Shown: positions 7,331 through 61,641 of the stretch, in pieces
Layout: the number at the start of each line of letters is the position of its first letter
How positions within the stretch are numbered: the first letter of the stretch is position 1
Source of the DNA: Komarekiella atlantica HA4396-MV6
Lineage (GTDB): Bacteria; Cyanobacteriota; Cyanobacteriia; Cyanobacteriales; Nostocaceae
Length of the DNA stretch: 64,000 nucleotides
NCBI GenBank assembly: GCA_019359395.1
Contig: JAHHHK010000008.1
Span: forward strand, 202,262 to 266,261
Reading direction: 5' to 3'
Notes under the pieces: model-generated
What the model saw: only the letters and a program-made list of their open reading frames with translations
The model's database searches: none
What the model was told of the DNA's origin: nothing
Made by a program: the position numbers and the translations under genes

Positions 7331-7816
7331 TACTAAAGCTATTATCAATAAACTAGATTAATTGACAGTGTCTTTAATACCAATCGTCTTATTTTGTATT
7401 ACAAAATGCTACCTTTGTAATATATCTACTGTTTAATAAATAAACAGATTGAAAAATAATACCTATAAATAATTGTAATTACGTATAATTTAATTCACGA
7501 TAATGGATAGCACCCACTACGCGATCGCACGCTGGCGACATAACCATACAATCTCTACAACCCAACAATTGCATCATTAAAAACAAGGTTTACGGCTTCA
7601 GTGTCAGTTACAAGACGAACTATAAGATATTACCTTGTATTATCACAAGTTACAGTACTCTCACTGGCGGCATCTAAATCAAGTATAGTTTATACCAAAA
7701 GTAGCAGCGATATTGTCCGCAATTGAGCCCATACACTGTTGTCAGATTTCCGGTTATCCCCAACTCCCTCAATGCAGTCTCTAACTATGCCACTCAGTCC
7801 CGCAGTGAAACAAGGT
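7331..7816. other. AT-rich region upstream of the mobilization genes; oriT candidate area
   Basis: No protein-coding frame is convincing. It includes one HIP1 site (about 7521), AAAACAAGGTTTACGG at 7579 and, at its right end, CAGTC...GAAACAAGGTATG running into the start codon of the MobC-like gene. Origins of transfer usually lie just upstream of mobC/relaxase genes, so this is the place to look; no nick-site consensus could be assigned. Confidence 0.35.
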
Positions 7817-8173
7817 ATGGTAAGTAACCCCATAAAGCGAACTAAATCTATCAAGGTATACCTCTTTGAGGAAGAGAAAACTACCATTGAGGAAAAAGCG
7901 ATCGCCACAGGGGTAACTGCATCTGAGTATTTACGTTCCTGTGGGTTAAGGCGGGTACTAACGGCAAAACCATCTGCCGACTTGATAACTATCCGCGCGA
8001 CTGCTGGAAACCTCAAAAGCGAACTGATGATGTTATCTCACTTAGCAAAGGAAACAAACAACCAGCAAATTTTGGATACTGTCAATAATGCGATCGCACT
8101 CGTAGATCAGACTATCGCAGCTGCATTTAACCTAGACGTTCTAGATAAATCACCCTCAAGCCAAGATAAATAA
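7817..8173 (+). CDS. MobC-like plasmid mobilization accessory protein
   Basis: A 118-aa protein starting MVSNPIKRTKSIKVYLFEEE, with the ribbon-helix-helix-like MobC pattern KTTIEEKAIATGVTASEYLR and then SCGLRR, and a C-terminal helix containing LMMLSHLAKETNNQQ. MobC-type proteins bind oriT and help the relaxase open DNA. It lies 42 bp upstream of the MOBP relaxase. An upstream TTG (7739) is possible, but the ATG at 7817 is embedded in the ACAAGGTATG word that is repeated elsewhere in the plasmid, and the family begins here. Confidence 0.75.
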   Translation: MVSNPIKRTKSIKVYLFEEEKTTIEEKAIATGVTASEYLRSCGLRRVLTAKPSADLITIRATAGNLKSELMMLSHLAKETNNQQILDTVNNAIALVDQTIAAAFNLDVLDKSPSSQDK

Positions 8174-8215: not shown

Positions 8216-9706
8216 TTGATTCCCGTCATCTATAAAAAACCCAATTTTCTCGACACGCTCAAGTATGTCTTGGGGAAAGATGATGCTGCGATTGTCGATA
8301 CTAATATGATGGGAACAAACCCAGATGAATTCAACCAGCAGTTTCTCAACATCAAGTACACCAAAAAAGCAGTTAAACGGCAGTGTGCCCACCTCATTAT
8401 CTCGATAGCACACCGCTCTAACTATCATGAGCATTTATCAGACAGTCAGTACAGTTATGTAGCAAGGGAATATCTCAAAGATATGGGATACTTACCGAAG
8501 GAAGAATCATCTGTAGCAGCTACGAGTCAGTTCGTTGCAGTACGCCACCACGATCGCGACCACGAACACCTGCATATAATCGCCTCCCGAATTCGGTTAG
8601 ATGGCAGTTTAGTTAATGATTCCTATGATTATTTCAACTCCCAAGTCTCAACTAGACGCATCGCGGCGGAACTAGGGTTAGAGGTGACACCGACAACGAA
8701 TGAAGCCGTCGCCTTTAAGTTACAGCAAGAGTATGGCATAACTGCACTCACCAGCCCCAACCGCTCGAAAAGTATTAGAGCAGTCAATAGTAAGCACAAA
8801 ACCCCAACAAGTAAGGAAATTATTCGCCAAGCAATAGGAGAAGCCATCAAGGATAGTCCCACTGTCTCCACGTTCATCCAACGCTTGGAGGAAAACAACA
8901 TTGGGGTATTGCCTAAAATGCGGGGGGAGGAACTACTAGGCTTTACCTACATCCATAATGATGTGAAAATCGCTGGTTATCAAATATACAAACCCTATAG
9001 TTGGAACAAACTGCTGTCTGAATACGGAATAACATACGACCAAGAGAAAGATAAGGAAGTAATTCAACAAGCTAAAGCCAGAGCAATTAACCGCATAAAT
9101 ATTAATACTATAAGTAATAATGAGTACTTGTATGCTGATAAACCTACTAGCAGCAGTAGAAGTGATGGTAATGGCGATACCGATAGTAATTCCAAAATAC
9201 TTGAGAGTACAAAAGTACTAAATAGTAATTATCCAGATCAAATTTCGACAATACAACCAAAATTAGAAGATAAACCCACGTCGGAAGCAAATAAGGTTAA
9301 GAAAAAAGTACAGCCGTATCTGAAGGAGCAACATCCACAACAGGATATTTCAGAAGAAAACCGTCTATCCGCTGAGCAATCTTCCCCTACTCCCCCTTTT
9401 CCTAACCTTCTCCCTTCTAACCTCAAACATCTGCCTTCTACAATCACTGACTATATGCTTGTTACCAATAATTTCCGTATCAAGGGACGGGAATTGAGTA
9501 CCAGCTTAGATGCCAATATTCTGATTGTTTACCGTCATGGGGATAATACTCCTGTGATGCAAACCTGCTATAGTCAGGGAAACTGGCACGAAGAGATACC
9601 AACTCGACTAACAACAAACGAAATCGAGCAGATTGAAAGCTTGCGTGTCTTTACCCAACAAGCGTTAATGAATAAATTGCGATCACAAAGAGGTATTGAG
9701 CAATAG
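8216..9706 (+). CDS. MOBP-type relaxase (mobilization nuclease)
   Basis: A 496-aa protein with a TTG start (MIPVIYKKPNFLDTLKYVLG), which matches the usual relaxase N-terminus; Y17 in the YVL motif is the likely nicking tyrosine. The metal-binding histidine motif is intact: H111, D113, H116, H118, H120 (HHDRDHEHLHIIASRI). The enzyme would nick oriT, stay bound to the 5' end and lead the strand into a recipient. Residues 290-390 are Ser/Asn-rich and likely disordered, and the C-terminal 90 residues form a separate small domain found in other cyanobacterial plasmid relaxases (inference). No type IV secretion or coupling genes are in the window, so the plasmid may be mobilizable rather than self-transmissible, or those genes lie elsewhere. 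Confidence 0.9.
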   Translation: MIPVIYKKPNFLDTLKYVLGKDDAAIVDTNMMGTNPDEFNQQFLNIKYTKKAVKRQCAHLIISIAHRSNYHEHLSDSQYSYVAREYLKDMGYLPKEESSVAATSQFVAVRHHDRDHEHLHIIASRIRLDGSLVNDSYDYFNSQVSTRRIAAELGLEVTPTTNEAVAFKLQQEYGITALTSPNRSKSIRAVNSKHKTPTSKEIIRQAIGEAIKDSPTVSTFIQRLEENNIGVLPKMRGEELLGFTYIHNDVKIAGYQIYKPYSWNKLLSEYGITYDQEKDKEVIQQAKARAINRININTISNNEYLYADKPTSSSRSDGNGDTDSNSKILESTKVLNSNYPDQISTIQPKLEDKPTSEANKVKKKVQPYLKEQHPQQDISEENRLSAEQSSPTPPFPNLLPSNLKHLPSTITDYMLVTNNFRIKGRELSTSLDANILIVYRHGDNTPVMQTCYSQGNWHEEIPTRLTTNEIEQIESLRVFTQQALMNKLRSQRGIEQ

Positions 9707-9951: not shown

Positions 9952-10632
9952 ATGCCCAAGAAAAAATGCGGACTTGGCTTTGACTGTGCCAGCATGATGC
10001 AATACCCAGGCATAGACCCTGCCGACTGTTTAAATTACAAAATTTGTGGAAGTGCTGTTCAACTAAGCCCCGATCAAGAACTCGAACTTGTTCGTATTCG
10101 GGAAGAACAAATGCGCCAGTATCAAGAACAAATTCGCCTAACCCGTCGTTCTGCCGCTATCATGATGCTGATGAGGCGCGGTTGCCCACAATCACCAGAA
10201 TCGTTAGGTGTTATCCCCGCCATTGAGGCGATCGCCACCACATTGGATAATATTCGTACTGGACTTACCAACTTCGACGGACAGTACATCGCGCCACCTG
10301 GTTGCGAACTCCACATCTACAATGTCAAACGGCCGAGTGGTACGTACTCGTACTATAAACTAACCGCCGAAAACGCAATATTTGCACCTTCAGAGAAAGA
10401 ACAAGAAGTACGGGTAATTCACCTCAGCCATCAGCATGATGCGCGGTATATAGAAGCACAACTTGGTATCGAACGGCGGAACAAGTTAACCCAAGTGCGA
10501 ACACTGCTTCACAACGCAAGCACATTGCTTGAGGAAGCAACACGCCTACTCGAACAAACCACAGATATGAACAGTCCAAATACTACAGTTGAAGTTTTCA
10601 ACAGTGATGAAATTATACCCATCGACTCATAA
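9952..10632 (+). CDS. Conserved-looking plasmid protein with Cys-rich N-terminus
   Basis: A 226-aa protein. Four N-terminal cysteines (C6, C12, C26, C32) in CGLGFDCASMMQYPG...DCLNYKIC could bind zinc or iron-sulfur. A long charged helix follows (EQELELVRIREEQMRQYQEQ, shown from DQELEL onward), then a region rich in aromatic/Gly residues around 100-130 and a second helical segment at 160-205. I do not recognise a family. It sits between the relaxase and the giant multidomain gene on the same strand, so a role in transfer or plasmid establishment is plausible but not shown. Confidence 0.65.
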   Translation: MPKKKCGLGFDCASMMQYPGIDPADCLNYKICGSAVQLSPDQELELVRIREEQMRQYQEQIRLTRRSAAIMMLMRRGCPQSPESLGVIPAIEAIATTLDNIRTGLTNFDGQYIAPPGCELHIYNVKRPSGTYSYYKLTAENAIFAPSEKEQEVRVIHLSHQHDARYIEAQLGIERRNKLTQVRTLLHNASTLLEEATRLLEQTTDMNSPNTTVEVFNSDEIIPIDS

Positions 10633-10805: not shown

Positions 10806-11162
10806 ATGACCATAAGTTTTAGAGAATGGCTCAAACAATTTAAAAATCAAGATGCACCCTTTGGTGATTTATGGAGTGATGCCACATCGACTAAAAGAGG
10901 AAGATTTCAAGATAAGATTTCAGACTCTTGGCAGGGTGACACTATAGAAAGCTTGATAGAGTTTATGGTTAAAAACGAAGCATCATATCAATCTCATAGT
11001 GTTCTTAATGAAGCTAATGAGGCGTATCATAATTATTTAGGTTTAGAACCTATAAAATCATCTAAATTGGAAGAGTTAGAGAACCAACTTAAAGCTAAAT
11101 ATTACGCAGAACGTCTACAACACTATACAAAATTATGTATTTTATATAGGAATCCTACTTGA
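10806..11162 (+). CDS. Small protein resembling YozE/SAM-like fold
   Basis: A 118-aa acidic/basic balanced protein. SFREWLKQFKNQDAPFGDLW at residues 4-23 resembles the start of the YozE SAM-like family (short N-terminal helix, FxxWL pattern, GDLxxD). The second half is a long helix (LEELENQLKAKYYAERLQHY). AGGGAGAAATGAAAA precedes the ATG. Function unknown; the family call is tentative. It is the last small gene before the giant multidomain gene, in the same orientation. Confidence 0.55.
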   Translation: MTISFREWLKQFKNQDAPFGDLWSDATSTKRGRFQDKISDSWQGDTIESLIEFMVKNEASYQSHSVLNEANEAYHNYLGLEPIKSSKLEELENQLKAKYYAERLQHYTKLCILYRNPT

Positions 11163-11627: not shown

Positions 11628-14600
11628 ATGACAATTCAAGCTAAACATTTTGACACTAGGTTAAATCAGTGGATTCATACAGATGGTAATACGGTTAATC
11701 CAGCTTCACTGTTAAAAGAAGAACTTAATAATACCTTAATAGAACATTTCTTTCGTGGGGTTAACTTTTCGTTCGGACATATGGACGAAAAGTCTAGTGT
11801 GGAACAATTAATTAATCATCCTGAAGGTCACAAATTATTATTATCATCAAAAACACGGTTGCTATATGGGCCTGAAAAATGTCTAGATAGAATTAAACAA
11901 TTATGCCCTGATAACAAAGATAGAGGTGCTTACGGATCTATTTTTCTCGGTTCGTGTAAAAATAGCGTCAATAAAGAGTTAAATATTCTAATTGTTGATG
12001 ACAGTAATGGTGAAAATGGCAGCGTTATTAGTAATGACCAAGTATATCGGCTAACCGGAGACTGTTACGGGCAAATATCCACAGACCTATATCACGAATT
12101 AACAAAACATCAAAAAGGTGATAAATATCGAGTAATTCAGCACCGTTTCGGCTGGACTGACCAAGACGGAAACGATAACAAATACCGCTTTGGCAAAGGT
12201 ACACTACGCCCTGCAAACCTTGACCAAATCCTCAATTATTCAGATCCCAACAACTCAACTAAAATTGACTTAATTCTTCCCTTATCTGCATTCAAGGGAA
12301 CTGATAAAGACAACCCTAATGGGCCAAGCAAGCCCCAAATTCAACCTGGACTGTACAGGCAAAATATCTGGCTAGGTGAAAAATCACAATCTGAACTCGG
12401 TAAAACAGCTATCTCGCAGTTACTCGCTTCATTCCCTAACGGGCTGAAAGACTTTACCGAACAGCTAGAACTTGAAGCCAAAAAGCTTAAGGAAGTACAG
12501 GACGACCCCCGGCAACTTGCACAACTTTACTGCGAAAAGTACGAGAAACGGAAAGCTTTTCTTGAAGAACAAGCAACCACGCTAGAAGAACAAGCAGCAA
12601 AAGATCCAACAGTAGTAGAAGAGTTAGAAACTTTGCGCGATGGCGCGGGAGCGCCCGCCGTAGGCGATCGCATTGCTACTGACTCGTTTATTTACAAACT
12701 TATCAAAGCTGACCTGCAAGAAGAGGGTCAACTTCTTGAAACTGAGAAAGTACAGCGCGAACTTGCCCGGTTCGTCCAAAACGAGTGGAAAGAAATCGCC
12801 ATCGGCAAGACGCTCACATTTGAGCGGGCAATGGTCATTCCCTCCAAAGACCTGCAAAATGGGGAAATCTGCATCCCGCATTATCAAGACGGGGAAGAAG
12901 TTCTCAACTTCCGCTCACCCTTCCTCAACTCAAATGGTCTGTGCGTCTCAACTAACAAAGTTGTAGAAGACGTCCTTGGGCCTGATGGTAAAGCTCTTGT
13001 AGGTGCGATCGCTGTCTCGGACGAAACAAGCGATCGCATTTATAACCGTCTAAACGAGCAAATTAAATCTGTCCTACCCGAAGCCCAAAGTAAAAATATT
13101 CAGTTAGAAGGTATTGAAAATTATTTAGATAAAAATATCAGCAAGCTCGAAACTAAAGACAAAATCGAGTTTACCAACAAATTTAATGAGTATATTTCAG
13201 AACTAAAGTCAGCTGGTTACGAATTAGAAATTCTTCCTCAAGAGTCCGAACAAGAGCGGCAGGCACGCGACTACGATGGTGATTGTATTGGCTTCGAGCG
13301 GGCAAGCAGGTATCCAAACCTCACCGCCGAGGCAAGGGAGCGCAACCTGCCTGAAAACGCTTACGATCCAACTGTTAAACTCAAAAAACAATCTTTTTAC
13401 CAGGAAGATGGCAGTCAGCCAGAATTTGAAGAAATCGCCATCCACATGAGCGATGGCATTAGTGTCGGTGTCATCAACAATCACCTGACCTCAATCGAGG
13501 CGTTAGAGTCAGAAATTACTATCCTGAAAAACTTTGGTAGCGAGAGAGAGCAAATTGAGTACGTACAGCAGGTAGCGAAACACTACGAAGATTTATTTAA
13601 AACAGAAGCCTGGGCAAAATCCAAAGGTATTGAAGGGAAGGAGGTTCCTGTCAAGTATCGCGGTTACATGGAAGAGTTTGTCCAAATTGTTCGGCAAGAG
13701 CCTCTAAACCGGGTAAATGCACTAGTGGCGATGAACACTAACACCCAGATGTACCGCGAAATAATTGCTGAGGCAGCATTTCAAAATCAAATTGCAGTTG
13801 ACCTCTTCAAGAGTGCCAAAAAACCCGAAATGGAAATTATCCGCAATAACAGTCGGATTCTCCACCGGGAAGTCAACTACATTAAGGATAAGAAGAAAGA
13901 TGTCTATGTTGACAATACAATTCAACCGGCGGGATACTCGCCTGTTGAATTACTAATTGCTCAAACCAACCAGTATTTTGAAAAAGCTCGTCTCGAATCG
14001 CGTGAAATCGTTCAATTTCAAGCTTTATTTAAATGGATTGAATTTTCTCATGAACAGCGATTAAGAGCTACTATTGTCAAAAAAGAATTCGATAAATCAT
14101 TCAACCGAGCGAGTGAGCTATCTAAACAAAAGGAAACTGAGAAAGGGCCATCTGTAAATATTACCCTTGCTAATGGCAATCAAATAAGTATAACTAACCT
14201 TCTACAGTATGATAATGAATTTATCTGGAAAGCTAATAAAATTACACTAAAACTATCAGAAATATCTGAAGATAAACGTAACAGTAACCGCCCGCATAGA
14301 TATTTAGTTTCTGCCCAAATTAACGATGAAACTGAGAATGGTAAATCTAAGTTTAGGGCATTAGGAACACTGACGAGGGAGCAAGAAAATAAACTCGAAG
14401 AGATAGGAATTGCACCTGGACAAGAAGTAACATCTAACAAAATATCCTTCCAACCTGAACTAAGTGAAGGTCAAATTAAACTTCTTTACCAAAAAGCTTA
14501 CCAGGTAGCAGAGGAATTTTACAATTCGATTCCAGAAGACCAAAGACTAGTAATGGCAGCTGCCACTTGGGCAGTATCAACTACTCGTGAGAGTAGTAAT

Positions 14601-17600
14601 GATAAAAGTAGCGATCGCCAGAACAAAGTTTCTAATTTCGCCTTTGCTGCCTTTCCTCAAGAGATTATCAGTCAGTTAGACAAACTCAAATTTAACGAGT
14701 TTAGTATCACTGGATTCGACCGTAGTAGTGAATTATTTAATGAAAATCAACCTCAGAATATTCGATTTAATTTAGCTGAAGATGGAAAAAGTGTAATTGA
14801 AATCCAGAATCAAGAGGAGAGTTACGAAACATTTGGAAATATTGAACAAAGTAATGCCCGATTACCAATTGGTACTACTGCTATTGCCAGTGTTGAAAAA
14901 GGTGAAGTATACACCACCTCTGTTACAACCAAAGTACCCGGACTACCAGAACTCACTTTCAAAGTAGGCGAAGTTAATAAGTTTGGAAACTCTCAAAGGT
15001 TTAATAATGAACCCGTAATGTTAACAATCGAAAAGGTTGACTTGATTCGGGAAGACTATAGTATTTATCTTCAAAATGGTAATAAACCTGAGAAACTAGG
15101 CAATATTGATAAGGAATCAATCAAAGAAGGTATTACCCAAGGCTGGCTAGCGGAAAAGCCTGGGAATGGGCAAAAGTTACAGCTTAAAATTCAAAGTATC
15201 ATCATTGGACAAAATGCCTATGCTATAGCAGAAACATCTCAAGGAAATTTATTACGAATAAATATTACGAATCAAAAGTATAAAAAACAGGAAATTAGCA
15301 ACCAAGTATTTCAAGAAACTTTAGTTAGAGCATTTGATAAAAAGCACGTTTACATTGCTAAAATTGGCGACCAATCACTCGGTATTATTGGTCAGCATAC
15401 TGAACGCCTCGAAGCTGAATTAAATAAAGAGAATGTACAAAAACAGTGGCAAAGGAAAGAAAGTAGCACTGTACAAAAACTAATTGATGCAGGTATTATT
15501 CGCCTAAACCAACAACGAACCACTATCCCTGTACAGATTACCAGTAATGAAAGTACCTGTAAAATAATTATTAATCCAGAAACAGTACAATATCCCGACA
15601 AATGGGTTAAACGCAGTCAGCTTATAAGTAATGAAAAGCCTGTCAGAGACGAGCAGCAGGAAAAACACAACCAAATACTCGGTAAAATTAACGAACGCCC
15701 TACAATCATGTTCCAAGATAAAGAGCAAAAATTAGTAGGGCTTTTAGGATTAGCAGTTGATGAAAATATAGCCGAAAAAACCAAAAAGTATCTCGAAAAA
15801 GTAGGAGTATCATACGAACAGCTTCCTATATCACAAGCTCGGTTAGAAGCTAAAAAAGGTATGACTGTATTCTTACTCGATGAAAGTACTATTAGCCATG
15901 AATTAAAACAAACATTCGTTGACCGTGCTGGTGGTAATATCAAGAGCGCAGATACACCGTCACAACCCACTCCAATCATTCCAGAACAAACTGTATATTT
16001 TTATAATCCAAATCAACAATATAGTTCCCCGTATGGATCGCTCTTAGAAACTAAAGAAGCTGTTGGATTAGTAGTTCCCGCACAAGACGCGATCGCTGTA
16101 GCTACTTGGCTAGAATCAAAATCTACTGAAAATCATTATTTTATTGAGAGTAACACAGCTACATTTATTTTTAATAAAAATGAGATTAGTGAAAAAATAA
16201 ACGAAGAATTAAATAGTTTACTTGGAGAACCGATTAATATCGGTAAAGTTGATGGATTTGACCGCTACGAACAGCTTAGTGCAGAGTTAAATCAAAAAGT
16301 TGCGGCTGAAGGTAGTCGTTTAGAATTAAACCAAATTCCAGAAAATAGTGAGTACAAAAAAGCTCTACAAGCACTACCTAACCGTCCCAGAGAGCTTAAT
16401 CAAGAAGATTCTCCAGTACCAATTATTCCTGCAAAAGCTGTACCAGAAAATAATATAACTAACATTCAATCAAATACTAACGCTACAGTTGCAGGTATTT
16501 CACAAGTTTACAAAAACGCAGTTGATATACAAGTATCAACAAACACAAAATTAAAAGCTGATAACCAAGCAATATTACTACCAAACTCGCGCCAAGCTGA
16601 TCAAACCAAAGCTATCGAAATATTGGGTAAGATAAGCGAGGAAAAAGTAGAACAATTGCGATCGCACCTTGAAACCCACCTCAAATGCGTACTTGAAAGC
16701 GATAAATCCAACTATGCACTACTGAGACAAGTTGCATGGGTCGGTGCAAAATGGGATTTGAAAGATAAAGCCTTCAAGCCAGGAGTACAGGACGACAAGT
16801 TAATAGAACTTGTCAAACAAATATATCCTGATGCAGATATTGTGCTGGTCACTTATTCTGAAAACCCCGGCGCTGGCATCAACTACCACCGTGATGACTC
16901 CTACGCTGCGACGGAGGCCCGCAGCATTAATATCGGAAATTCTGACTGGGGGTATCGCGCTGCTAAAGAACGAATGGCATGGACTAGGGAAGAGAATCAG
17001 GACGCACCATACCAAGAGTTTAAACTTGAGTCGGGTACAGTAACCCGGTTTAACTGCAAGAACGAACATGCTGCACTTAATACTGAGGCTGGCAGATGGT
17101 CTATCAACATCTGGTCAATCAAAAATGACCTGGGTAGAGAAAACAGCGTTCGCAAAAAATTTGAAAACTTCCTCGCTTCAAACCAACCTCCTCGTGCGGT
17201 AGTCCAAAGCAACAGCGACCTCACCATCAAAACTAACGAGTGGACTCTTGGGGGAGAAATTAAAGTAGAGCGCAGTTATACCAGCCTCAGAGAAGTCGCC
17301 CGAAGCATACCCTTAAACTCTTCAAACCAACTAACTGTCGAAGAAATTATCACCATCGGTAATTCCACTGCGGCACGCGCTGCTAACCCTCAGATTCCAG
17401 ACAACCCGACTATATCTGGAAAACCAGTACCAATGGTTTCTTCGCTGCATCTGCACGGCGAACCTTCCACAGTAGCAGTTGATACAACCATTGATGCCAT
17501 GCGCGGACACGGTAGGATACACACCACCAGAGGTGTAGACTACCAAAAAACTTATGGTATCAATGAGGGAGATATTGCGATCGCCCAAGGTAAAAACGGC

Positions 17601-19454
17601 GAGCAAGTTGCTTTCCGGGTGGGTAAGCAGTACAAAATTACCCCCGAAATGATTCAAGACCCAAGTTACCAGCAAGCCTGGGCGAAATGGGAAAAGCATT
17701 CACCGAAAGAACTTACCCAAACCCAGGCGAGTAAGAGTCAGGTATATGGCTTATTCATGGAGCCGCTAGGGGATTATGTCAATGGCAGAATTGTTCCATT
17801 CCCAGCCATCCAAAAACAAACTCTCACTCCGGTAAATATCAGCCCCGACTCCAAAGATGGACTTGGAGTAGCACTCAGCCTTGCAACTGCATTCGCAAAA
17901 GAACAAGGCAAGCTACAAAACGATTACCAAGTTTCAGTCAATAATAATCCAGAAGCCCCCGCCGGGCAGTATGGAGTAGAGAACCACAGCCAAAAACCTG
18001 AAGGAGTAGCATACGCATCCGCCGAACACGCATTTAATCACAAAAAGCAGTTGCATCCATCAGCTAATGAATACAAGTTAATGGTAGAAGTGCTTCAGGC
18101 TAAACTCGAACAACACCCCCGGCTAACAGAGGCGATCGCCAAACGTGGAGGAACTGAGTGGCTGGAAAACTGTACGGCAGTTGCTACAACGGGGGGAACC
18201 CCCGCAACGCACTGCCTCACCAATATAACTAACGCCCAGGATAAACAGTGGGAGGGTAAGGGTAAAGAATCCGCATTTATTCAAGCCCTCAGCGAAGCAT
18301 ATACCAATGTAGTTGAAAAGTCACAACAAACTACAGTACAAACCCAGCAGGAAAAGTCCCAACAGACTGCTCTGCCACTCACAAATCCACTGTCCCAACT
18401 CGAACCCATAAACGCCGCCGTCGCTGAACACATGAAAAAAGATATTGCGATGGCCCAAATAGCTACCCAGTTTATCGGTAAATCAGCTGCGTCCCCCAGT
18501 ACACCTTCAAGCACTCGTAATTATGAGCAAGCATGGAGAGAACGCGCCAACACAGGAAATTACTCAAAAGAAGACATCATTATGGTATCCGGGTCTGGTC
18601 CGTGGCGCGGAGTGACAAGCGAGCAAATTGCTCAAACATTTGAAAATCACTACAAACCGTTACTTGATAAGGCAATAGAAGCGAAAAGCTCTTTCATAGT
18701 CGGAAACGCACAAGGAACCGATCAATTAGTTCAAAATTATCTTCAAGAAAAAGGGTACAAAATAGAACAAACTTCCCAAGGATACGCTGTATTTAATCCT
18801 ATAGAAAATATCAAAATTAGTACCAACACTATTTCTTCCAATACACAAGTATCAGATAACCCATTTATTACTAATGACAAGAGCATTTTCTCTCCACAAC
18901 AAAGTCAACAACCAAATATTGACCAAGCACTCACATCACCTTCTCAACCAAGAATACAGCAGGTTGGAGCGATGGATAACATTATCGAGCGGATGAAAGC
19001 TAATACAGTGCAAAATCTTCAAGACTGGTATGTAGCATCTGAAAAGCTCGGTAAATCAGAAACATATCTCAATAGAATTCAGGAGGTAACTGATTTATAC
19101 ATCAAAGAAAATATCAGTCTTGAGAACGCTTTTAAGGCAATGGAGCGAGATATTAAGGAGTTAGAAAAAATTAATAAAATGACCAGTCTTGCCCAAAATT
19201 TAGTTAAAATCATTGGACAGGAAGATATCAATGGTATTATGTCAGTACAAACAGAAAAATACCAAATTGCTACAAAAGCCCAAGACAAAATCTACTTAGT
19301 TAAAGATAAAAATGACAAGATATTATTATATATCAAAGAAGGGAGAACCCAAGTAAGTAACATCAGTGATGAAACATTACAGGACTTTCAACTCATGAAT
19401 TCCCGTATCGATAATGCTCTCAAAGATGTCAAAAAAGATTTAGTGGAGAGGTAA
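11628..19454 (+). CDS. Giant polyvalent protein: RdRP/QDE-1-like RNA polymerase core plus AlkB-, PUA/ASCH-, NADAR- and SLOG-like domains
   Basis: A 2608-aa protein. Residues about 400-760 carry the ordered motifs of the cellular RDR/QDE-1 polymerase family: a R429-S-P431 strand (NFRSPFLNSNGLCVSTN), the metal-binding loop RDYDGDCIGFE (D548, D550, D552), ISVGVINNHL (G614, N617, H619) and IAVDLFKSAKKPEM (D725, K728). Residues about 1690-1850 look like an AlkB-type 2-oxoglutarate/Fe(II) oxygenase (H1754-x-D1756, H1814, R1823). About 1935-2060 resembles a PUA/ASCH-type domain (DAMRGHGRIHTTRG...YGINEGDIA). About 2090-2245 resembles NADAR (ASAEHAFNHKK, QWEGKGKESAFIQALSEAY). About 2318-2400 is SLOG/YspA-like (IMVSGSGPWRG; VGNAQGTDQL). 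The rest is unassigned. Giant mixed-enzyme proteins of this kind are known from phages and conjugative elements as polyvalent proteins that protect or establish incoming DNA. The 258-aa gene starts 14 bp downstream. Domain calls are by eye; the polymerase is the best supported because four separate motifs occur in order. Confidence 0.85.
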   Translation: MTIQAKHFDTRLNQWIHTDGNTVNPASLLKEELNNTLIEHFFRGVNFSFGHMDEKSSVEQLINHPEGHKLLLSSKTRLLYGPEKCLDRIKQLCPDNKDRGAYGSIFLGSCKNSVNKELNILIVDDSNGENGSVISNDQVYRLTGDCYGQISTDLYHELTKHQKGDKYRVIQHRFGWTDQDGNDNKYRFGKGTLRPANLDQILNYSDPNNSTKIDLILPLSAFKGTDKDNPNGPSKPQIQPGLYRQNIWLGEKSQSELGKTAISQLLASFPNGLKDFTEQLELEAKKLKEVQDDPRQLAQLYCEKYEKRKAFLEEQATTLEEQAAKDPTVVEELETLRDGAGAPAVGDRIATDSFIYKLIKADLQEEGQLLETEKVQRELARFVQNEWKEIAIGKTLTFERAMVIPSKDLQNGEICIPHYQDGEEVLNFRSPFLNSNGLCVSTNKVVEDVLGPDGKALVGAIAVSDETSDRIYNRLNEQIKSVLPEAQSKNIQLEGIENYLDKNISKLETKDKIEFTNKFNEYISELKSAGYELEILPQESEQERQARDYDGDCIGFERASRYPNLTAEARERNLPENAYDPTVKLKKQSFYQEDGSQPEFEEIAIHMSDGISVGVINNHLTSIEALESEITILKNFGSEREQIEYVQQVAKHYEDLFKTEAWAKSKGIEGKEVPVKYRGYMEEFVQIVRQEPLNRVNALVAMNTNTQMYREIIAEAAFQNQIAVDLFKSAKKPEMEIIRNNSRILHREVNYIKDKKKDVYVDNTIQPAGYSPVELLIAQTNQYFEKARLESREIVQFQALFKWIEFSHEQRLRATIVKKEFDKSFNRASELSKQKETEKGPSVNITLANGNQISITNLLQYDNEFIWKANKITLKLSEISEDKRNSNRPHRYLVSAQINDETENGKSKFRALGTLTREQENKLEEIGIAPGQEVTSNKISFQPELSEGQIKLLYQKAYQVAEEFYNSIPEDQRLVMAAATWAVSTTRESSNDKSSDRQNKVSNFAFAAFPQEIISQLDKLKFNEFSITGFDRSSELFNENQPQNIRFNLAEDGKSVIEIQNQEESYETFGNIEQSNARLPIGTTAIASVEKGEVYTTSVTTKVPGLPELTFKVGEVNKFGNSQRFNNEPVMLTIEKVDLIREDYSIYLQNGNKPEKLGNIDKESIKEGITQGWLAEKPGNGQKLQLKIQSIIIGQNAYAIAETSQGNLLRINITNQKYKKQEISNQVFQETLVRAFDKKHVYIAKIGDQSLGIIGQHTERLEAELNKENVQKQWQRKESSTVQKLIDAGIIRLNQQRTTIPVQITSNESTCKIIINPETVQYPDKWVKRSQLISNEKPVRDEQQEKHNQILGKINERPTIMFQDKEQKLVGLLGLAVDENIAEKTKKYLEKVGVSYEQLPISQARLEAKKGMTVFLLDESTISHELKQTFVDRAGGNIKSADTPSQPTPIIPEQTVYFYNPNQQYSSPYGSLLETKEAVGLVVPAQDAIAVATWLESKSTENHYFIESNTATFIFNKNEISEKINEELNSLLGEPINIGKVDGFDRYEQLSAELNQKVAAEGSRLELNQIPENSEYKKALQALPNRPRELNQEDSPVPIIPAKAVPENNITNIQSNTNATVAGISQVYKNAVDIQVSTNTKLKADNQAILLPNSRQADQTKAIEILGKISEEKVEQLRSHLETHLKCVLESDKSNYALLRQVAWVGAKWDLKDKAFKPGVQDDKLIELVKQIYPDADIVLVTYSENPGAGINYHRDDSYAATEARSINIGNSDWGYRAAKERMAWTREENQDAPYQEFKLESGTVTRFNCKNEHAALNTEAGRWSINIWSIKNDLGRENSVRKKFENFLASNQPPRAVVQSNSDLTIKTNEWTLGGEIKVERSYTSLREVARSIPLNSSNQLTVEEIITIGNSTAARAANPQIPDNPTISGKPVPMVSSLHLHGEPSTVAVDTTIDAMRGHGRIHTTRGVDYQKTYGINEGDIAIAQGKNGEQVAFRVGKQYKITPEMIQDPSYQQAWAKWEKHSPKELTQTQASKSQVYGLFMEPLGDYVNGRIVPFPAIQKQTLTPVNISPDSKDGLGVALSLATAFAKEQGKLQNDYQVSVNNNPEAPAGQYGVENHSQKPEGVAYASAEHAFNHKKQLHPSANEYKLMVEVLQAKLEQHPRLTEAIAKRGGTEWLENCTAVATTGGTPATHCLTNITNAQDKQWEGKGKESAFIQALSEAYTNVVEKSQQTTVQTQQEKSQQTALPLTNPLSQLEPINAAVAEHMKKDIAMAQIATQFIGKSAASPSTPSSTRNYEQAWRERANTGNYSKEDIIMVSGSGPWRGVTSEQIAQTFENHYKPLLDKAIEAKSSFIVGNAQGTDQLVQNYLQEKGYKIEQTSQGYAVFNPIENIKISTNTISSNTQVSDNPFITNDKSIFSPQQSQQPNIDQALTSPSQPRIQQVGAMDNIIERMKANTVQNLQDWYVASEKLGKSETYLNRIQEVTDLYIKENISLENAFKAMERDIKELEKINKMTSLAQNLVKIIGQEDINGIMSVQTEKYQIATKAQDKIYLVKDKNDKILLYIKEGRTQVSNISDETLQDFQLMNSRIDNALKDVKKDLVER
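12636..12672 (+). repeat. Small GC-rich repeat in frame within the giant gene
   Basis: GCGATGGCGCGGGAGCGCCC followed by GCCGTAGGCGATCGC encodes RDGAGAPAVGDRIA. It is far more GC-rich than the surrounding gene and has the palindromic, HIP1-containing look of the small dispersed repeats of Nostocales. Confidence 0.6.
18178..18222 (+). repeat. Second small repeat in frame within the NADAR-like part of the giant gene
   Basis: GTTGCTACAACGGGGGGAAC then CCCCGCAACGCACTGCC encodes VATTGGTPATHCL. GTTGC...GCAAC arms and composition unlike the neighbours suggest an inserted repeat between the conserved WLENC and WEGKG segments. Confidence 0.5.
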
Positions 19455-19467: not shown

Positions 19468-20244
19468 ATGAAAGAACTAATCGAACTTCCAGTAGAAGGT
19501 TTAACTCCAGCGATGCAAGCTAGTCTCCTCAGAGAATTGATCAAACAGCTTAACATCCATGATGATAAATTTGAAGAATCTGCAAAAAAGCCTCCAACTG
19601 CTGAGGAAACAAAAGAGGCTGTGCTAAGGTTGAATTCGGAAATTAACAGAATCAGTGAAGTAGTGCAAAATGAAGTAAAAGTAAAAGTAAACTCTACAGA
19701 AATTAAACTTATCACTTTTGTTAATCAAGTTAATCAAGAGTCATCTTCACAAGCCGAAGCAAGCCAGTTTACACGAACGACAATTGAACCAGAGGCTCTA
19801 AAAAACCCCACAAATAAAAATGACGACAATAATGGCAACCCAGTAGAAGAGAGTCCAGAAGATAGAGTACAATCTCTTACCGCCGATTCTCAAATTAGAC
19901 AGTTTGTTATTCCTGTAATTTTAGACCGCTTAGATATATTTGGAAAATCAGATAAAGAGACAAAAGGTATCATTTATAAAGGTGAAGCATATACTGCAAG
20001 TCTAAAATTAGAAGAAGATTCGCAAACTCTTAGCCTTGATAGAAATTTGCCTAATTCCGAACAAAGTCGAGAAGCACTCTTGGCATCTCGTGACAATAAC
20101 TCAGAAGAGTACTCTATCACCATTAATAATCTCACCAAAGAGGAATTTGAACGTTTCAAGACTCTGTTCAATGAGCAACAAGCACGCCGCGAACAGAGTC
20201 AACAACAATTCAAAAACCAGGATTCTGCTAAAGAGCTAGATTAA
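19468..20244 (+). CDS. Companion protein of the giant gene, unknown function
   Basis: A 258-aa, Glu/Asn/Gln-rich hydrophilic protein starting 14 bp after the giant gene's stop, so almost certainly co-transcribed. Residues 1-90 are helical with heptad-like spacing (LLRELIKQLNIHDDKFEE), the middle (100-145) is low-complexity and probably disordered, and 150-250 looks like a small alpha/beta domain (IRQFVIPVILDRLDIFG, IIYKGEAYTASLKLEE, ITINNLTKEEFERFKTLF). I do not recognise a family. Position suggests a chaperone, loader or regulator of the giant protein, as inference. Confidence 0.65.
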   Translation: MKELIELPVEGLTPAMQASLLRELIKQLNIHDDKFEESAKKPPTAEETKEAVLRLNSEINRISEVVQNEVKVKVNSTEIKLITFVNQVNQESSSQAEASQFTRTTIEPEALKNPTNKNDDNNGNPVEESPEDRVQSLTADSQIRQFVIPVILDRLDIFGKSDKETKGIIYKGEAYTASLKLEEDSQTLSLDRNLPNSEQSREALLASRDNNSEEYSITINNLTKEEFERFKTLFNEQQARREQSQQQFKNQDSAKELD

Positions 20245-40852: not shown

Positions 40853-43114
40853 ATGGATACTCTGAGTCTTAAACTTCGAGGCATGAGTTGTGCCTCATGT
40901 GCCAACAACATTGAAGAAGCAATTCGTTCTGTTCCTGGGGTGAGTAACTGTAACGTCAACTTTGGCGTGGAGCAGGCTACTATCCAGTATGATCCCAAGC
41001 GCACCAATCTGGAAACAATCCAAGCCGCTATAAATGCTGCCGGATACTCATCTTACTCACTCCAGGAACAAGAAATGATTACTGGAGAGGATGATGCGGA
41101 AAAAACCGCCCGTGAAGCAGAATTACGCACACTTACCCGCAAGCTAATTGTCGGAGCAATCCTCAGCGCTTTGATTGTACTGGGGTCAATTTCTGCCATG
41201 ACAGGGCTAAACTTGCCTTGGATTCGGACGTTGTGGCTAGACAATCCTTGGGTACAGTTGGTACTGACAACCCCTGTCTTGTTCTGGTGCGGTGCAGACT
41301 TCTTCAAAAATGCTTGGAAAGCCTTTAAACGGCATACAGCAACGATGGACACTTTGGTTGCTATCGGTACTGGTGCAGCGTATTTTTATTCACTTCTTGC
41401 TACTGTTTTCCCAGGATTTTTTACGGCTGCTGGACTAATGCCTGATGTGTACTATGAAGCAGCAGCAGTCATTACGACCTTAATTTTGCTAGGAAGGCTA
41501 TTTGAGAATCGCGCTAAGGGACAAACTTCTGAAGCCATCCGTAAACTCATCGGTTTGCAAGCCAGAGATGCCAGAGTAATCAGAAATGGGCAAGAAATTG
41601 ATGTTCCCATCCAGGAAGTTCAAATTGGTGATGTAATTTTGGTGCGTCCGGGCGAAAAAATTCCTGTTGACGGAGAAGTGATAGAAGGTGCTTCCAATGT
41701 TGATGAAGCGATGGTGACTGGTGAGAGTTTGCCAGTCAAAAAGCAACCGGGGGATGAAGTCATTGGAGCCACAATTAACAAAACAGGTAGCTTTAAATTC
41801 CGGGCAACTCGCGTCGGAAAAGACACTTTTTTGTCTCAAATCGTCAAAATGGTGCAACAAGCTCAAGGCTCCAAGGCACCTATTCAACGTTTAGCAGATC
41901 AAGTAACGGGATGGTTTGTGCCAGTAGTGATAGCTATTGCGATCGCTTCCTTCATTATTTGGTTTAATGTCATGGGCAATTTCACACTTGCTCTAATTAC
42001 CACAGTCGGAGTGTTGATTATCGCTTGTCCCTGTGCCTTAGGTTTAGCTACTCCAACTTCAGTGATGGTAGGAACGGGCAAGGGAGCAGAAAATGGTATT
42101 TTAATTAAAGGTGCAGAAAGTTTAGAACTTGCTCATAGAATCCAGACCATTGTGCTGGATAAAACTGGAACTTTAACACAGGGAAAACCCACTGTTACTG
42201 ACTTTGTTACTGTCAACGGCACAGCTAATAGTAACGAGTTAAAACTTTTGCAATTGGCAACGTCTGTAGAACGAAATTCAGAACATCCATTAGCTGAAGC
42301 GGTGGTTAGATATGCCCAATCTCAGCAAGTAGAACTGACAGAGGCTAAGAAATTTGAAGCGATCGCTGGGAGTGGTGTCCAAGGCATTGTTTCAAACCAC
42401 TTAGTGCAAATTGGTACTCAACGTTGGATGGAAGAATTAGGTATCAACACCCGCACCCTCCAAGAGCGCAAAGCCTCTCTAGAAGCTGCTGGTAAAACGG
42501 CTATTTTAATCGCTGTAGATGGGCAAATTCAAGGCTTGATGGGAATTGCGGATGCACTCAAACCCTCTTCAGTGGAAGTTGTGAGAACGCTACAGAAGTT
42601 AGGTTTAGAGGTAGTTATGCTAACAGGGGATAATCGCAAAACAGCAGAAGCGATCGCCAGTGAAGTTGGTATTAGACGAGTATTTGCAGAAGTTCGACCC
42701 GACCAAAAAGCGTCTCAAGTACAAGCATTGCAAGCAGAGGGGAAAATTGTGGCAATGGTGGGTGATGGCATCAATGATGCTCCAGCACTGGCTCAGGCAA
42801 ACGTGGGGATTGCAATTGGTACGGGGACAGATGTGGCGATCGCTGCCAGCGATATTACTCTCATCTCTGGAGACTTGCAAGGTATTATTACCGCAATTCA
42901 ATTGAGCCGTGCCACTATTCGCAATATCCGCCAAAATCTCTTCTTTGCCTTTATTTACAATGTTGCTGGGATTCCCATTGCTGCTGGAGTTTTGTTTCCT
43001 ATCTTTGGCTGGTTACTCAACCCAATTATTGCGGGTGGGGCGATGGCTTTTAGTTCTGTTTCTGTTGTTACGAATGCCTTACGCTTGCGTAACTTTCACC
43101 CCAAAACTATCTAA
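40853..43114 (+). CDS. copA: P1B-1 type copper-exporting ATPase (CopA-like)
   Basis: A 753-aa ATPase. N-terminal HMA domain with [15 protein letters not shown] (C13, C16); eight membrane helices; transduction loop TGESLPV; transmembrane metal site CPC (C392-P-C394); phosphorylated Asp436 in [22 protein letters not shown] (HP motif); [10 protein letters not shown] hinge. The last helix holds [16 protein letters not shown] (MxSS), which with CPC assigns the Cu(I)/Ag(I) class. It pumps Cu(I) out of the cytoplasm or into internal membranes. No TTTCAT box precedes it; expression probably comes from the MerR-type promoter at 40235. The cupredoxin-like gene begins 22 bp after its stop. Confidence 0.95.
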
Positions 43115-48574: not shown

Positions 48575-51500
48575 TCATACAACTGAACCTTGAGTAACAT
48601 CGATTTCTTGTACTTGTGTAGTCTTTTTGGGAACCAAAAATTTACCAAATAGCGAATATAAAGCCGGCAAAACTAAGAGTGTTAAAGCAGTGGAAGTAAC
48701 CAAGCCACCTAACACTACCACAGCCAAAGGTTGTAAAATTTCCTTACCTGCACCAGAACCAATTACTAATGGAACCATACCTAGTGCTGACGAAAGTGCT
48801 GTCAGGAGAATCGCAACTAATCGTTCCATCGAACCATCAACAATTACTTGTTTGAGCGGTATTCCCTCTGCTAGGCGATTGTTATAGTTATCCACTAACA
48901 GCAATCCGTTACGCGTAGCAACACCAAATAGAGTGATAAAACCAACCATAGAAGCAACAGAAATAATACCACCACCCAAGGCTACAGAGATGACACCTCC
49001 AATTAATGCCAGTGGCAAGTTAATCATTATCATGACTGTGGCAGGAATTGACTTAACCGCAAAGTAAATCAGTACAGAAATTACAGCGATCGCAACTGCA
49101 CCTGCAATAATTAATGTCTGCGTTGCTTGTTCCTGTGCCTGAAACTGACCGCCAAATTGGACATAGTAGCCTCCAGGAAGTTGAATTTGTTTGACGCGAT
49201 TGCGTACATCCTTAATTACAGAACCCAAATCCTTTCTAGCAACGTTGGCAGAAACCACAATCAGCCGGGAAACATTTTCACGATTGATGGTACTTGGCCC
49301 CGTGCCATAATCAACTTTAGCAACCTGAGATAAGGGAATTTTCTGCCCGTTTGGTGTATCTACCAACAAGTTACCAATTACGTCCAAATTGTTACGGGAG
49401 CTATCTTGCAACCACACAACGAGATTAAACGTTAGTTGCTTCTCCAACACTTGAGAAACTGCTTTTCCATTCAATCCAGTCTCTATAGTTTCTGCCAGTT
49501 CTCCCACAGTTAACCCATAACGAGCGGCTGCATCGCGGTCAAATTGAATTTGAATTTGTTTGACTGGGACTTGGGGTTCAAGTTGCAGATCCACAATGCC
49601 GGGAATACCACTCATGGCGGATTGTACCTGTTTACCAATGGTACGGAGTTGTTCAAGTTCGGAGCCGTAAATTTTGACAGCGATCGCACTTCTGACTCCT
49701 GATAAAATTTCATCCATGCGGTGTGAGATAAACCCGCCGATATTAGTTGCAACACCAGGAAGTTTTTCAAACTCTTTACGGAGTACTTCAACAGTCTTCT
49801 CTCGATCCTTTCCTCCTTCTTCGCTAATTTGCACATCCAACTCGCCAAAGTTTACCCCTGCCACATCCGGGTCTCCTTGAGCAAACCCAGAGCGGAACGC
49901 AATGGCATCGAAGCGCTGATCATTTTTGAGAGCATCCATCACTGCCAAAGCGGCTTGGTCAGTTGCATCTAAGGATTCACCAGGTAAAAGAATTATTGCA
50001 TTGACCAAAGAGCGGTCTTGGAACTCTGGCAGGAAGACTTTTCCTAATCCAGGTAGAATGATCATAGATGCAACAAAACCCGCAAGTGCAACTCCTAAAA
50101 CTACCTGGGGGCGACGAATTGAAAACTTCAACGCTGGACGATAAAATTGATGTACTTTGCGCTCTAGCCAAGTTTCCGTACTAGGTAAACGTCGATTTGC
50201 CAGTAATAAGGCACATAGCGCTGGAGTTAATGTTAATGCAACTAAGGTAGAAGCGAGAATCGATAGCAAATACGCCATTCCCATTGGTGTGAAAATGCGA
50301 CCTTCTACCCCAGACAGAACAAAAATCGGTGCAAAGACTACTGCAATAATTACTGTTGAAAATAGAACACTAACACGTACTTCTACTGAACCATCAAACA
50401 CGACTTGTAAAGAATTTTTCGGGTTGCCTGCTATTTGGTTCTCCCTCAATCGGCGGTAGACGTTTTCCATATCAACGATGGCATCATCAACCACAGAACC
50501 AATAGCAACCACCAGTCCACCCAAGGTCATGGTGTTAATGCCCTGTCCAGTCCAGCTAAGAATAATCATCCCCAACAGTAACGACACAGGCAGCGCACTA
50601 AGGCTAATAATAACCGTGCGCCAGTTCATCAAGAAGATAATCAGAATAACTGAAACAATAATTACGCCATCCCGCAGGGCTTCCTCAACGTTTTTGACCG
50701 AAGCTTCAATGAATAAATTCTGGTCAAAGGTCTTAGTAAACTTGACATCCTTCGGTAGCCCTGGTTTAATCTCTTCCATTGCTGCTTCCACAGCTTTGAT
50801 AACGGTGGGAGTATCTGCCACAGGCTGCTTGGAGACAGTTAAAATCACCGCTCGTTTGCCTTGAAATAGTCCATCTCCACGTCTTAGTGCTGGGCCAATT
50901 TTGACCTCTGCTACCTGTTCTAATAGTACGGGTATACCTTTCGTCGCCTTGATCACTGAACGCTTGAGCTTGTCAATCGACTCGATCCGCCCAATTCCCC
51001 GAATCAGTGTTTCTTGGTCAGGAGTAATTAAAAATCCTCCCGGCACGTTGACGTTGGCATTCTGCACTGCCTTAGTAACTTCTGGCAGGGAAACACTATA
51101 AGCTTTGAGCTTGTCTGGGTCAACCAAAACTTGATACTGTCGCTCATCCCCACCGTAGAGAAATACGTTACTCACCCCTGGTACAGCCAGCAAGCGATTT
51201 TTTACATCCCAATTGACAATGCGCCACACCTCCATCATGTCGGTGCTTTCAGCAGAAAAAGCGTATTTAACGGCCCATCCCAAGGGCGAGTTAACAGGCA
51301 GAATTTCTGGCTGCTCAACCCCTTGTGGCAGTTGCGCCCCTTGTAATCGCTCTGTCACCAGTTGACGCGCACGGTATATATCAGTGTCCCAGCTAAAGAC
51401 GGCTTTAATAGCAGAAATTCCGACAGCGGAAGCAGAGCGAAGCGATTCTAGTCCTGGTGTGCCATTAATCACGCTCTCAATCGGGCGAGTTACCAAGGAC

Positions 51501-51685
51501 TCGATTTCTTCTGGTGCTAAACCAGAAGCTTGAACTTGAATTTCTACTTGAGGCGGAGCAAAGGCAGGAAATACGTCTAGCGGCATTTGTGTGATGACGC
51601 GCAATCCCCACAGACTAATTAATATCGAGGCAATAACGATTAGCCACCGTTGCGCGATCGACCATTTAACAATGGAATTGAGCAT
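48575..51685 (-). CDS. HME-family RND heavy-metal efflux pump (CusA/CzcA-like)
   Basis: A 1036-aa protein from the ATG at 51683-51685. Twelve membrane helices, two large periplasmic loops (about 35-335 and 560-870). Helix 4 reads GGLVVAIGSVVDDAIVDMEN, the HME signature with proton-relay Asp pair. Substrate class is unclear: neither the CusA Met pattern nor the classical CzcA D-G-A-V-V version is present. The typical neighbours CusB (adaptor) and CusC (outer-membrane channel) are absent from the window. An RppA-type box lies 105-120 bp upstream, so it is part of the same regulon. Confidence 0.92.
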   Translation of the reverse strand: MLNSIVKWSIAQRWLIVIASILISLWGLRVITQMPLDVFPAFAPPQVEIQVQASGLAPEEIESLVTRPIESVINGTPGLESLRSASAVGISAIKAVFSWDTDIYRARQLVTERLQGAQLPQGVEQPEILPVNSPLGWAVKYAFSAESTDMMEVWRIVNWDVKNRLLAVPGVSNVFLYGGDERQYQVLVDPDKLKAYSVSLPEVTKAVQNANVNVPGGFLITPDQETLIRGIGRIESIDKLKRSVIKATKGIPVLLEQVAEVKIGPALRRGDGLFQGKRAVILTVSKQPVADTPTVIKAVEAAMEEIKPGLPKDVKFTKTFDQNLFIEASVKNVEEALRDGVIIVSVILIIFLMNWRTVIISLSALPVSLLLGMIILSWTGQGINTMTLGGLVVAIGSVVDDAIVDMENVYRRLRENQIAGNPKNSLQVVFDGSVEVRVSVLFSTVIIAVVFAPIFVLSGVEGRIFTPMGMAYLLSILASTLVALTLTPALCALLLANRRLPSTETWLERKVHQFYRPALKFSIRRPQVVLGVALAGFVASMIILPGLGKVFLPEFQDRSLVNAIILLPGESLDATDQAALAVMDALKNDQRFDAIAFRSGFAQGDPDVAGVNFGELDVQISEEGGKDREKTVEVLRKEFEKLPGVATNIGGFISHRMDEILSGVRSAIAVKIYGSELEQLRTIGKQVQSAMSGIPGIVDLQLEPQVPVKQIQIQFDRDAAARYGLTVGELAETIETGLNGKAVSQVLEKQLTFNLVVWLQDSSRNNLDVIGNLLVDTPNGQKIPLSQVAKVDYGTGPSTINRENVSRLIVVSANVARKDLGSVIKDVRNRVKQIQLPGGYYVQFGGQFQAQEQATQTLIIAGAVAIAVISVLIYFAVKSIPATVMIMINLPLALIGGVISVALGGGIISVASMVGFITLFGVATRNGLLLVDNYNNRLAEGIPLKQVIVDGSMERLVAILLTALSSALGMVPLVIGSGAGKEILQPLAVVVLGGLVTSTALTLLVLPALYSLFGKFLVPKKTTQVQEIDVTQGSVV

Positions 51686-51788
51686 TTTTGAGACCAATCA
51701 AGGGTTTTTGCTTGACGATACAGTTAATCCATCTGGAATAATCTGTAATTATGACAATCTGGCACTGTATTTAATGTCTCAAATGAAA

Positions 51789-60672: not shown

Positions 60673-61641
60673 TTAACTGAAAATATAGTGTTGTAGATTT
60701 GTGTGGCAACGACGGAGGTAACTCAGTGCTTGTTTTTCTATGTAACGAACTCTCCTCTCACTAATGTTGAGATTTTGAGCTATTTGCGTCAAGGTGAGTT
60801 CGCAATTATCTTCCAAGCCATAATGCAAAATTAGGACTTGTTGCTGCTGTGGAGTTAATTCTCTCAGTGAGAGATAGATATCTTGACGCATTAAATTTTG
60901 AGTTACTTGGATTTCAGGCGAGGCTTCTGGAACTTCTGTTAAAAGTTCTTGCAATTCTGTATCTTCGTTATCGCCCACTTGTTTATCTAATGAGACAGGT
61001 TGACGAGATATCATCAGCAGTTCGCGGACTTGAGCAGGGTTTAATTTCATCTTTTCTGCAATTTCAGGTACACTAGGACTGCACTTTAATTTTTGAGATA
61101 ATTCCCTTTGCACTTTTTTAAGTTTATTCAACTTTTCGGTAAGATGAATTGGCAGTCTAATAGTTCGTGATTGCTGAGATATTGCTCGTGTCATTCCCTG
61201 GCTAATCCACCAATAAGCATAGGTAGAAAACTTATAGCCACGAGTGGGGTCAAATTTCTCTACACCACGCTCTAAACCTAGTGAACCTTCCTGAATTAAA
61301 TCCATAAACTCCACATTTCGTCCTTGATATTTTTTGGCGATAGAAACCACTAAACGAAGATTTGCTACCATCATCTTTTGCTTTGCCTGTGTACCTTGCT
61401 GAAAAATCTCCTTCACTTCTATTTCACTAAGCTGTACATATTTAGCTAATTCTTTTTGAGATGGTTCGTGGTTGAGTTGTTTCTTCAAAGTTTCCTTTTT
61501 ATTTTGTAACGTAATCATCTGCTGTACCTGTTTGCTAGATGAAATTTCTTCCTCATGAGTCAACAATGGTACACGAACAATATCTTGCAGGTAATTCCAA
61601 ACTATATCTGTGCTGAATTTAATATTTGACGTTGTTGTCAT
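60673..61641 (-). CDS. Group 2 sigma-70 family factor (SigB-type)
   Basis: A 322-aa sigma factor from the ATG at 61639-61641. Region 1.2 (DIVWNYLQDIVRVPLLTHEEE), region 2 (MVANLRLVVSIAKKYQGRNV, DLIQEGSLGLERGVEKFDPT, FSTYAYWWISQGMTRAIS), region 3, and region 4 (LTLTQIAQNLNISERRVRYI). Length and region 2.4 fit the non-essential group 2 sigma factors of cyanobacteria, which act in stress and nutrient responses. Region 4.2 has variant residues at its end (RYIEKQALSYLRRCH). Plasmid-borne and placed between two-component and proton-extrusion genes, it may redirect RNA polymerase under metal stress. Confidence 0.92.
   Translation of the reverse strand: MTTTSNIKFSTDIVWNYLQDIVRVPLLTHEEEISSSKQVQQMITLQNKKETLKKQLNHEPSQKELAKYVQLSEIEVKEIFQQGTQAKQKMMVANLRLVVSIAKKYQGRNVEFMDLIQEGSLGLERGVEKFDPTRGYKFSTYAYWWISQGMTRAISQQSRTIRLPIHLTEKLNKLKKVQRELSQKLKCSPSVPEIAEKMKLNPAQVRELLMISRQPVSLDKQVGDNEDTELQELLTEVPEASPEIQVTQNLMRQDIYLSLRELTPQQQQVLILHYGLEDNCELTLTQIAQNLNISERRVRYIEKQALSYLRRCHTNLQHYIFS

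Follow-up and report, generated by a model that had tools for sequence, protein, structure and literature searches.

Single-subunit RNA polymerases of phages and plasmids with two double-psi beta barrels have been described as one clade together with the polymerases of RNA interference (PMC10770324), and phage and plasmid enzymes of this type are also described in PMC7281927. In QDE-1, the first barrel (DPBB1, residues 690-792) has the invariant residues Q736, K743 and K767, and the second (DPBB2, residues 916-1018) has the catalytic aspartates D1007, D1009 and D1011 (PMC1750930). The paper on RDR2 describes an Asp-Gly element, the bridge-helix glycine G886 and the trigger-loop lysine K923, equivalent to K1119 of QDE-1 (PMC8713982). 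YonO of phage SPbeta, a stand-alone protein of about 100 kDa, is a proven DNA-dependent RNA polymerase of the single-chain two-barrel type on a mobile element, and the same report mentions YonO-like proteins, possibly of the family described here, in cyanobacterial genomes (PMC5467207). Gp96 of Thermus phage P23-45 is a giant mobile-element protein whose N-terminal part is a two-barrel RNA polymerase; for this tail-tape-fused virion enzyme, transcription during DNA entry has been proposed (PMC10770324). Gp64 of the same phage is another two-barrel RNA polymerase for comparison.

Polyvalent proteins of conjugative elements are multi-domain plasmid giants with shuffled enzymatic modules; the part of the survey available to us (Iyer et al. 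2017) names Toprim and Primpol primases and N4-type virion RNA polymerases, and not a two-barrel RNA polymerase. The conjugative primases RP4 TraC and SogL are comparable in role only, as enzymes that would act on the transferred single strand, and are described with a Toprim domain.

We analyzed a window of 64,000 nucleotides (the whole stretch of DNA, to which the coordinates below refer) from a plasmid of the cyanobacterium Komarekiella atlantica HA4396-MV6. An open frame from the ATG at 11628 to the stop at 19454 (+ strand) encodes a 2608-residue protein, P0001, as the first-pass annotation had it; the protein has a predicted N-terminal polymerase core and variable C-terminal modules. The plasmid had also been called mobilizable, in agreement with a NikA-like oriT-binding accessory protein (7739..8173, +; PF21983, E 4e-14), a MobA/VirD2-type relaxase (8216..9706, +; PF03432, E 1.8e-21) whose gene ends 1921 bp before the polymerase gene, and a T4SS coupling protein encoded elsewhere on the contig (C72:152866-154023). 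The relaxase is the only match of the whole assembly to PF03432, the relaxase family covered by the search. Two genes of 226 aa (9952..10632, +) and 118 aa (10806..11162, +) lie between relaxase and polymerase and a 258-aa gene (19468..20244, +) lies directly downstream; all three are kept in many close relatives and were assigned to no family. The promoter scan upstream of the polymerase gene detected 1 site, with 3.6 expected. A second polymerase gene copy is present in the host assembly (C37:23290-26112), on a contig with its own coupling-protein gene.

Whereas the conjugative primases carry Toprim, no Toprim or AEP domain was found in P0001 by Pfam search, and Toprim_2 (PF13155) had no match on the polymerase contig, its assembly matches being only on C59 and C60. 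A Prim-Pol primase is encoded on the polymerase's contig as a separate gene (C72:174020-174607; PF09250 match). Because of this gene, the polymerase is not needed as the plasmid's only primer maker and ordinary replication priming would not be its only use.

For residues 1-1000 of P0001 (11628..14627, +), the predicted fold is that of a complete single-chain two-barrel RNA polymerase resembling RDR, QDE-1 and YonO, and this predicted intact polymerase is the best-supported part of our explanation. Residues 1..990 of the model align with maize RDR2 370-1088 and residues 1..1000 with QDE-1 486-1319; these two were the best structural matches, at low Foldseek scores (TM-score 0.34-0.36, rmsd 10-13 Å). 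We read two barrels in the model because the aligned QDE-1 range spans both DPBB1 and DPBB2, so that the RDR/QDE-1 architecture is judged from the aligned range of a predicted model and not from individually traced barrels. Read in this way, the model supports the single-chain QDE-1/RDR-like polymerase proposed in the first-pass annotation: a fold without two double-psi barrels was not seen. The location of DxDGD in an unrelated domain was ruled out by the predicted fold. The phage P32 gp64 and P74 gp62 structures were rows 7 and 8 among the 50 structure matches listed for the model.

Sequence comparison also supported the family relation. PF05183 was above the cut-off in two stand-alone relatives (L009 and L011), and hhalign to a PF05183-type protein gave E 3.3e-6 and 1.2e-5. 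P0001 itself had no Pfam (PF05183 included) or NCBIfam match above the cut-off, and we therefore file it only as a branch of the superfamily, not as a PF05183 member. The PDB sequence search with the polymerase part of P0001 gave no match, and no polymerase was found with the family profiles A1 and A5 against PDB sequences. A different, phage-type PF05183 protein with DWDGD was seen in a distant genome of the phylum (L106, G297).

P0001 shares with RDR2 and QDE-1 the predicted fold and the motif order D, Q..R, KG, K(G), R.P, DxDGD, bridge Gly and D..K. It differs from them in a lineage-specific insertion, about 75 residues long and directly ahead of the metal loop (residues about 466-540; 13023..13247, +), which is not in the stand-alone relatives aligned, and in that its core is the N-terminus of a giant fusion; its family is found on bacterial plasmids, with no RNAi context seen. 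All four motifs named in the first-pass annotation were found in P0001 in the order given. R429-S-P431 (12912..12920, +), on the strand before the metal loop, and D548-Y-D-G-D552 (13269..13283, +), the predicted metal-binding loop of the second barrel, are exactly where they had been placed. ISVGVINNHL and IAVDLFKSAKKPEM are also present, each off by one, at 611-620 rather than 612-620 and at 722-735 rather than 723-736.

The alignment A3 (61 rows, identity down to about 20%) was used to evaluate conservation. Invariant in all rows are D98, Y102, D145, C146, Q171, R173, K190, G191, K223, G224, Q264, P405, R429, P431, D548, D550, G551, D552, E568, G614, Q721, D725, K728 and F797. The proposed GxxxNxH segment held in part in the same 61 rows, with N618 in 56/61 but H619 in only 5/61, mostly replaced by Q or E. 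The first-barrel motifs D145, Q171/R173, K190-G191 and K223-G224, each 61/61, had been missed by the earlier reader. D145-C146 (12060..12065, +) takes, by motif order, the position of the Asp-Gly element of RDRs; Q171-H-R173 (12138..12146, +), K190-G191 (12195..12200, +) and K223-G224 (12294..12299, +) are the proposed equivalents of QDE-1 Q736, K743 and K767. After the metal loop, the helix 600-636 (13425..13535, +; DSSP of the model), with G614, is the predicted bridge helix, and Q721...D725..K728-S-A730 (13788..13817, +) contains the proposed trigger-loop lysine (RDR2 K923, QDE-1 K1119). These equivalences are based on motif order and local resemblance rather than superposed coordinates. 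The residues D145, Q171, K190, K223, D548/D550/D552, G614 and K728 thus appear to match the QDE-1/RDR list in order and kind. The features of single-chain two-barrel RNA polymerases found in P0001 are DxDGD, the first-barrel glutamine with two lysines and, with equivalence by order, the bridge glycine with the trigger lysine.

The D.DGD pattern was found in 241/241 proteins, namely P0001 and the 240 best-scoring listed homologues (the best 120 of 257 from the residues 1-800 search and the best 120 of 200 from the profile search). From the composition of P0001, 0.014 occurrences of D.DGD would be expected by chance, but it is the invariance among homologues that gives the pattern its meaning. 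A chance motif was ruled out, by the expectation and then by the invariance. Metal-dependent RNA synthesis by the polymerase core is, in our estimate, highly probable.

A polyvalent protein could also keep an inactive core as a nucleic-acid-binding scaffold. Such loss does occur, since in L010, a plasmid relative outside both homologue lists, NFGGD and AINGHAA replace the motifs, but the loop kept in P0001 and every listed homologue, together with the other proposed catalytic positions at 61/61, makes a scaffold role of P0001 very hard to credit. The L010 gene (L010:5725-8499, Leptolyngbya boryana pLBX) represents a natural inactive member with the catalytic motifs lost. We likewise considered a two-barrel DNA polymerase like archaeal PolD, which would copy the incoming strand directly. 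PolD has a two-barrel core too (PMC10770324, PMC7281927), but the motif set of P0001 is that of the RDRs, and we regard a PolD-like enzyme as highly improbable; the 50 structure matches listed contain no PolD chain, an absence that by itself excludes nothing.

The template has to be considered separately. The structural matches to RDR2 and QDE-1 and the PF05183 matches in relatives would suit an RNA-copying enzyme that turns transcripts of plasmid or host into dsRNA, with a use in regulation or counter-defence, but PDB structures of QDE-1 with DNA templates exist (7y7r, 7y7s), so the fold does not decide the template. No Dicer or Argonaute was named in the 24 annotated neighbourhoods viewed. 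RNase H acts on RNA-DNA hybrids, and it is to such hybrids that the RNase H fusions of relatives point. RNA copying therefore seems improbable to us, and since relatives fuse the core to RNase H and helicases, DNA is probably the template rather than RNA.

The proteins of the family vary widely in length, with 924-1484 aa in stand-alone members and 3964 aa in P0035. Among the best 120 of 257 homologues, 52 have at least 2000 residues, the N-terminal core is common and the middle is reshuffled. RNase H-like, helicase and SLOG modules are fused in some relatives, and P0001 resembles the polyvalent proteins in that several unrelated modules stand in one plasmid protein and are reshuffled between relatives. 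One homologue, P0198, carries DUF3991 (PF13154, 1.6e-10), a domain known from plasmid Toprim primases.

In P0001, an AlkB-like 2OG-Fe(II) dioxygenase domain is predicted at residues 1662-1832 (16611..17123, +), with H1754-x-D1756, H1814 and R1823. The AF2 model of residues 1560-2608 was poor (pLDDT 62.7, pTM 0.29), with an interpretable match for the AlkB-like part alone; for this reason NADAR (E 0.047 in P0001, 0.012 in P0024) and SLOG-like DUF6873 (E 0.00022 for the P0001 segment), both below the cut-off, are tentative assignments in P0001. The C-terminal module (residues 2461-2599; 19008..19424, +; taken as residues 2454-2608 in the homologue comparison) was found by sequence in 112 of the best 120 of 257 homologues versus 11 of the best 120 of 200 stand-alone-type ones, and within the assembly only in P0001 and its C37 paralogue. 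Because it is confined to the polymerase family there, this module gives no evidence of a general secretion signal, an idea that we rejected since neither the relaxase nor any protein of the assembly outside the family has this part. With the full-length query, four Variovorax plasmids matched as well; they are not among the rows listed for residues 1-1000, and a C-terminal module is possibly the cause of these matches.

The search with residues 1-800 detected 257 homologues at E<=0.001 and the profile of ten plasmid relatives 200 proteins, each search scoring only about 8,000 candidates. Most named members among the homologues listed are called 'hypothetical protein'. By tblastn with residues 1-1000, 82 of 72,556 plasmid records matched, and all 60 listed of the 82 bear cyanobacterial names; MOB-suite typed the 82 plasmids as conjugative (38), mobilizable (15) and non-mobilizable (29). 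A relative is encoded in 199 genome-contig stretches, and the 80 kept all have cyanobacterial titles; 40/386 sampled genomes of the phylum have a match. A virus origin of the family was rejected, as no match was found among 50,697 phage records (tblastn) and two pattern scans of IMG/VR detected no relative. The system had been called undescribed, which is too strong, given that YonO-like proteins of cyanobacteria (PMC5467207) and the phage and plasmid two-barrel clade (PMC10770324) are in print. Among the papers listed by our literature searches, no title or start of an abstract describes the plasmid family of P0001.

The 80 loci scanned for neighbours comprise 35 closer ones and 45 in the group of <57% identity. 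A same-strand MOBP relaxase match within 6 kb upstream was detected in 21/31 close relatives with full flank (one of them weak, L045, 24% identity) and in 0/4 with incomplete flank. The more distant loci had MOBP in 7/32 and MOBF in 7/32 with full flank and MOBP in 1/13 with incomplete flank. According to annotation, a relaxase is present in 14/24 plasmid regions (MOBP 5, MOBF 4, MOBV 5, one MOBV case being a gene with the annotation 'plasmid recombination enzyme', whose plasmid was typed MOBV), versus 2.1/24 expected for random placement with one relaxase per plasmid. The gaps between relaxase and polymerase are 846 to 11,387 bp, 10/14 under 6 kb. No relaxase was annotated in the other 10/24 stretches (flanks 6-9 kb, compared with 9-15 kb for most positives), eight of which belong to more divergent members. 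The 14 positives are not independent because related plasmids share a backbone, and the linkage argument consequently rests on the three relaxase types.

Taking the core, the template and the linkage together, we suggest a two-barrel polymerase that acts about the time of conjugative transfer and makes RNA on the plasmid's single-stranded DNA, a proposal whose chances we put at about even. The relaxase linkage and the AlkB-like module suggest work on single-stranded DNA at transfer, in analogy to the P23-45 tail-tape RNA polymerase (PMC10770324). With the transferred single strand as template, the polymerase core would make early transcripts or primers, and the AlkB-like part would repair the same strand, the protein either travelling with the DNA or being made afterwards. 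For the narrower point, a role in recipient or donor at transfer, before the strand is double-stranded, the chances appear to fall slightly short of even.

A real polymerase could alternatively serve the resident plasmid, transcribing its gene set or priming vegetative replication. A characterised single-chain enzyme, YonO, transcribes late genes of its phage SPbeta (PMC5467207). At least one relative (L046) is on a chromosome record, although a relaxase match lies upstream of it at about 1 kb, and the more divergent members L006, L007, L009-L012, L014 and L015 had no relaxase (0/8) in the stretches viewed (flanks 6-9 kb). On the other side, three relaxase types are found nearby in the wider lineage of P0001, the RNase H-like, helicase and AlkB-like fusions suit the handling of DNA better than transcription from promoters, and vegetative priming could already be done by the Prim-Pol encoded on the P0001 contig; we consider a purely resident role unlikely.

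The transfer-related proposal has a further form, in which P0001 would be an entry protein. The plasmid-borne RDR/QDE-1-type RNA polymerase would transcribe or prime the incoming strand, while repairing, cleaning and guarding that strand would fall to the AlkB, RNase H, helicase and SLOG parts, as a conjugative counterpart of the N4 and P23-45 virion RNA polymerases. This form seems rather unlikely to us. Gp96 belongs to phage ejection and a tape measure, whereas the setting of P0001 is conjugation with AlkB, SLOG, RNase H and helicase modules. In known NikA plasmids oriT lies upstream of nikA, and if this holds here, the polymerase gene is on the relaxase side and need not enter first.

The first RNA made from the single strand of a conjugated plasmid is an open question, for which a plasmid polymerase tied to three relaxase types is a testable candidate; if the transfer role is true, the plasmid would likely make RNA on its own DNA when moving between cells. 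The two-barrel superfamily, the source of the eukaryotic silencing polymerases, also gains from this family a large plasmid branch with intact catalytic positions, in which some stand-alone members score above the Pfam cut-off for eukaryotic RdRPs.

Several additional neighbours were observed. In 44/45 loci of the <57%-identity group, versus 4/35 of the closer group, the start of a divergent gene of about 176 aa (L124:13423-13953, - strand, and equivalents) is found about 40-60 bp before the polymerase gene; it matched no family above the cut-off and is possibly a regulator or partner of the polymerase. Five divergent plasmids (L007, L009, L012, L014 and L015) have a ThiF gene on the upstream side of the stand-alone polymerase gene, at a distance of 0.1-4.5 kb; in L015 and, apart from one small reverse ORF, in L014, but in none of the other three, it directly precedes the polymerase gene. 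E2-like or Mov34 genes accompany ThiF in some of the five, a cassette that we presume to be PRTRC-like, and L007 has DncV-like and SAVED genes between ThiF and the polymerase gene. Separate alkylation-repair genes (AlkB, MGMT) occur near the polymerase gene (L012:2716-3399, L125:18855-19646), and two Gloeothece plasmids have an ssb gene 2-5 kb upstream of it (L013:1285-1662, L138:12515-12928). The Komarekiella plasmid carries metal-handling cargo, with P-type ATPase, RND pump, Nramp and cation-efflux genes (window 40853-43114, 48575-51697, 53048-54376, 62845-63897), and a sigma-70 factor gene (window 60673-61656); sigma genes are annotated near the polymerase gene also in L124, L133 and L137.
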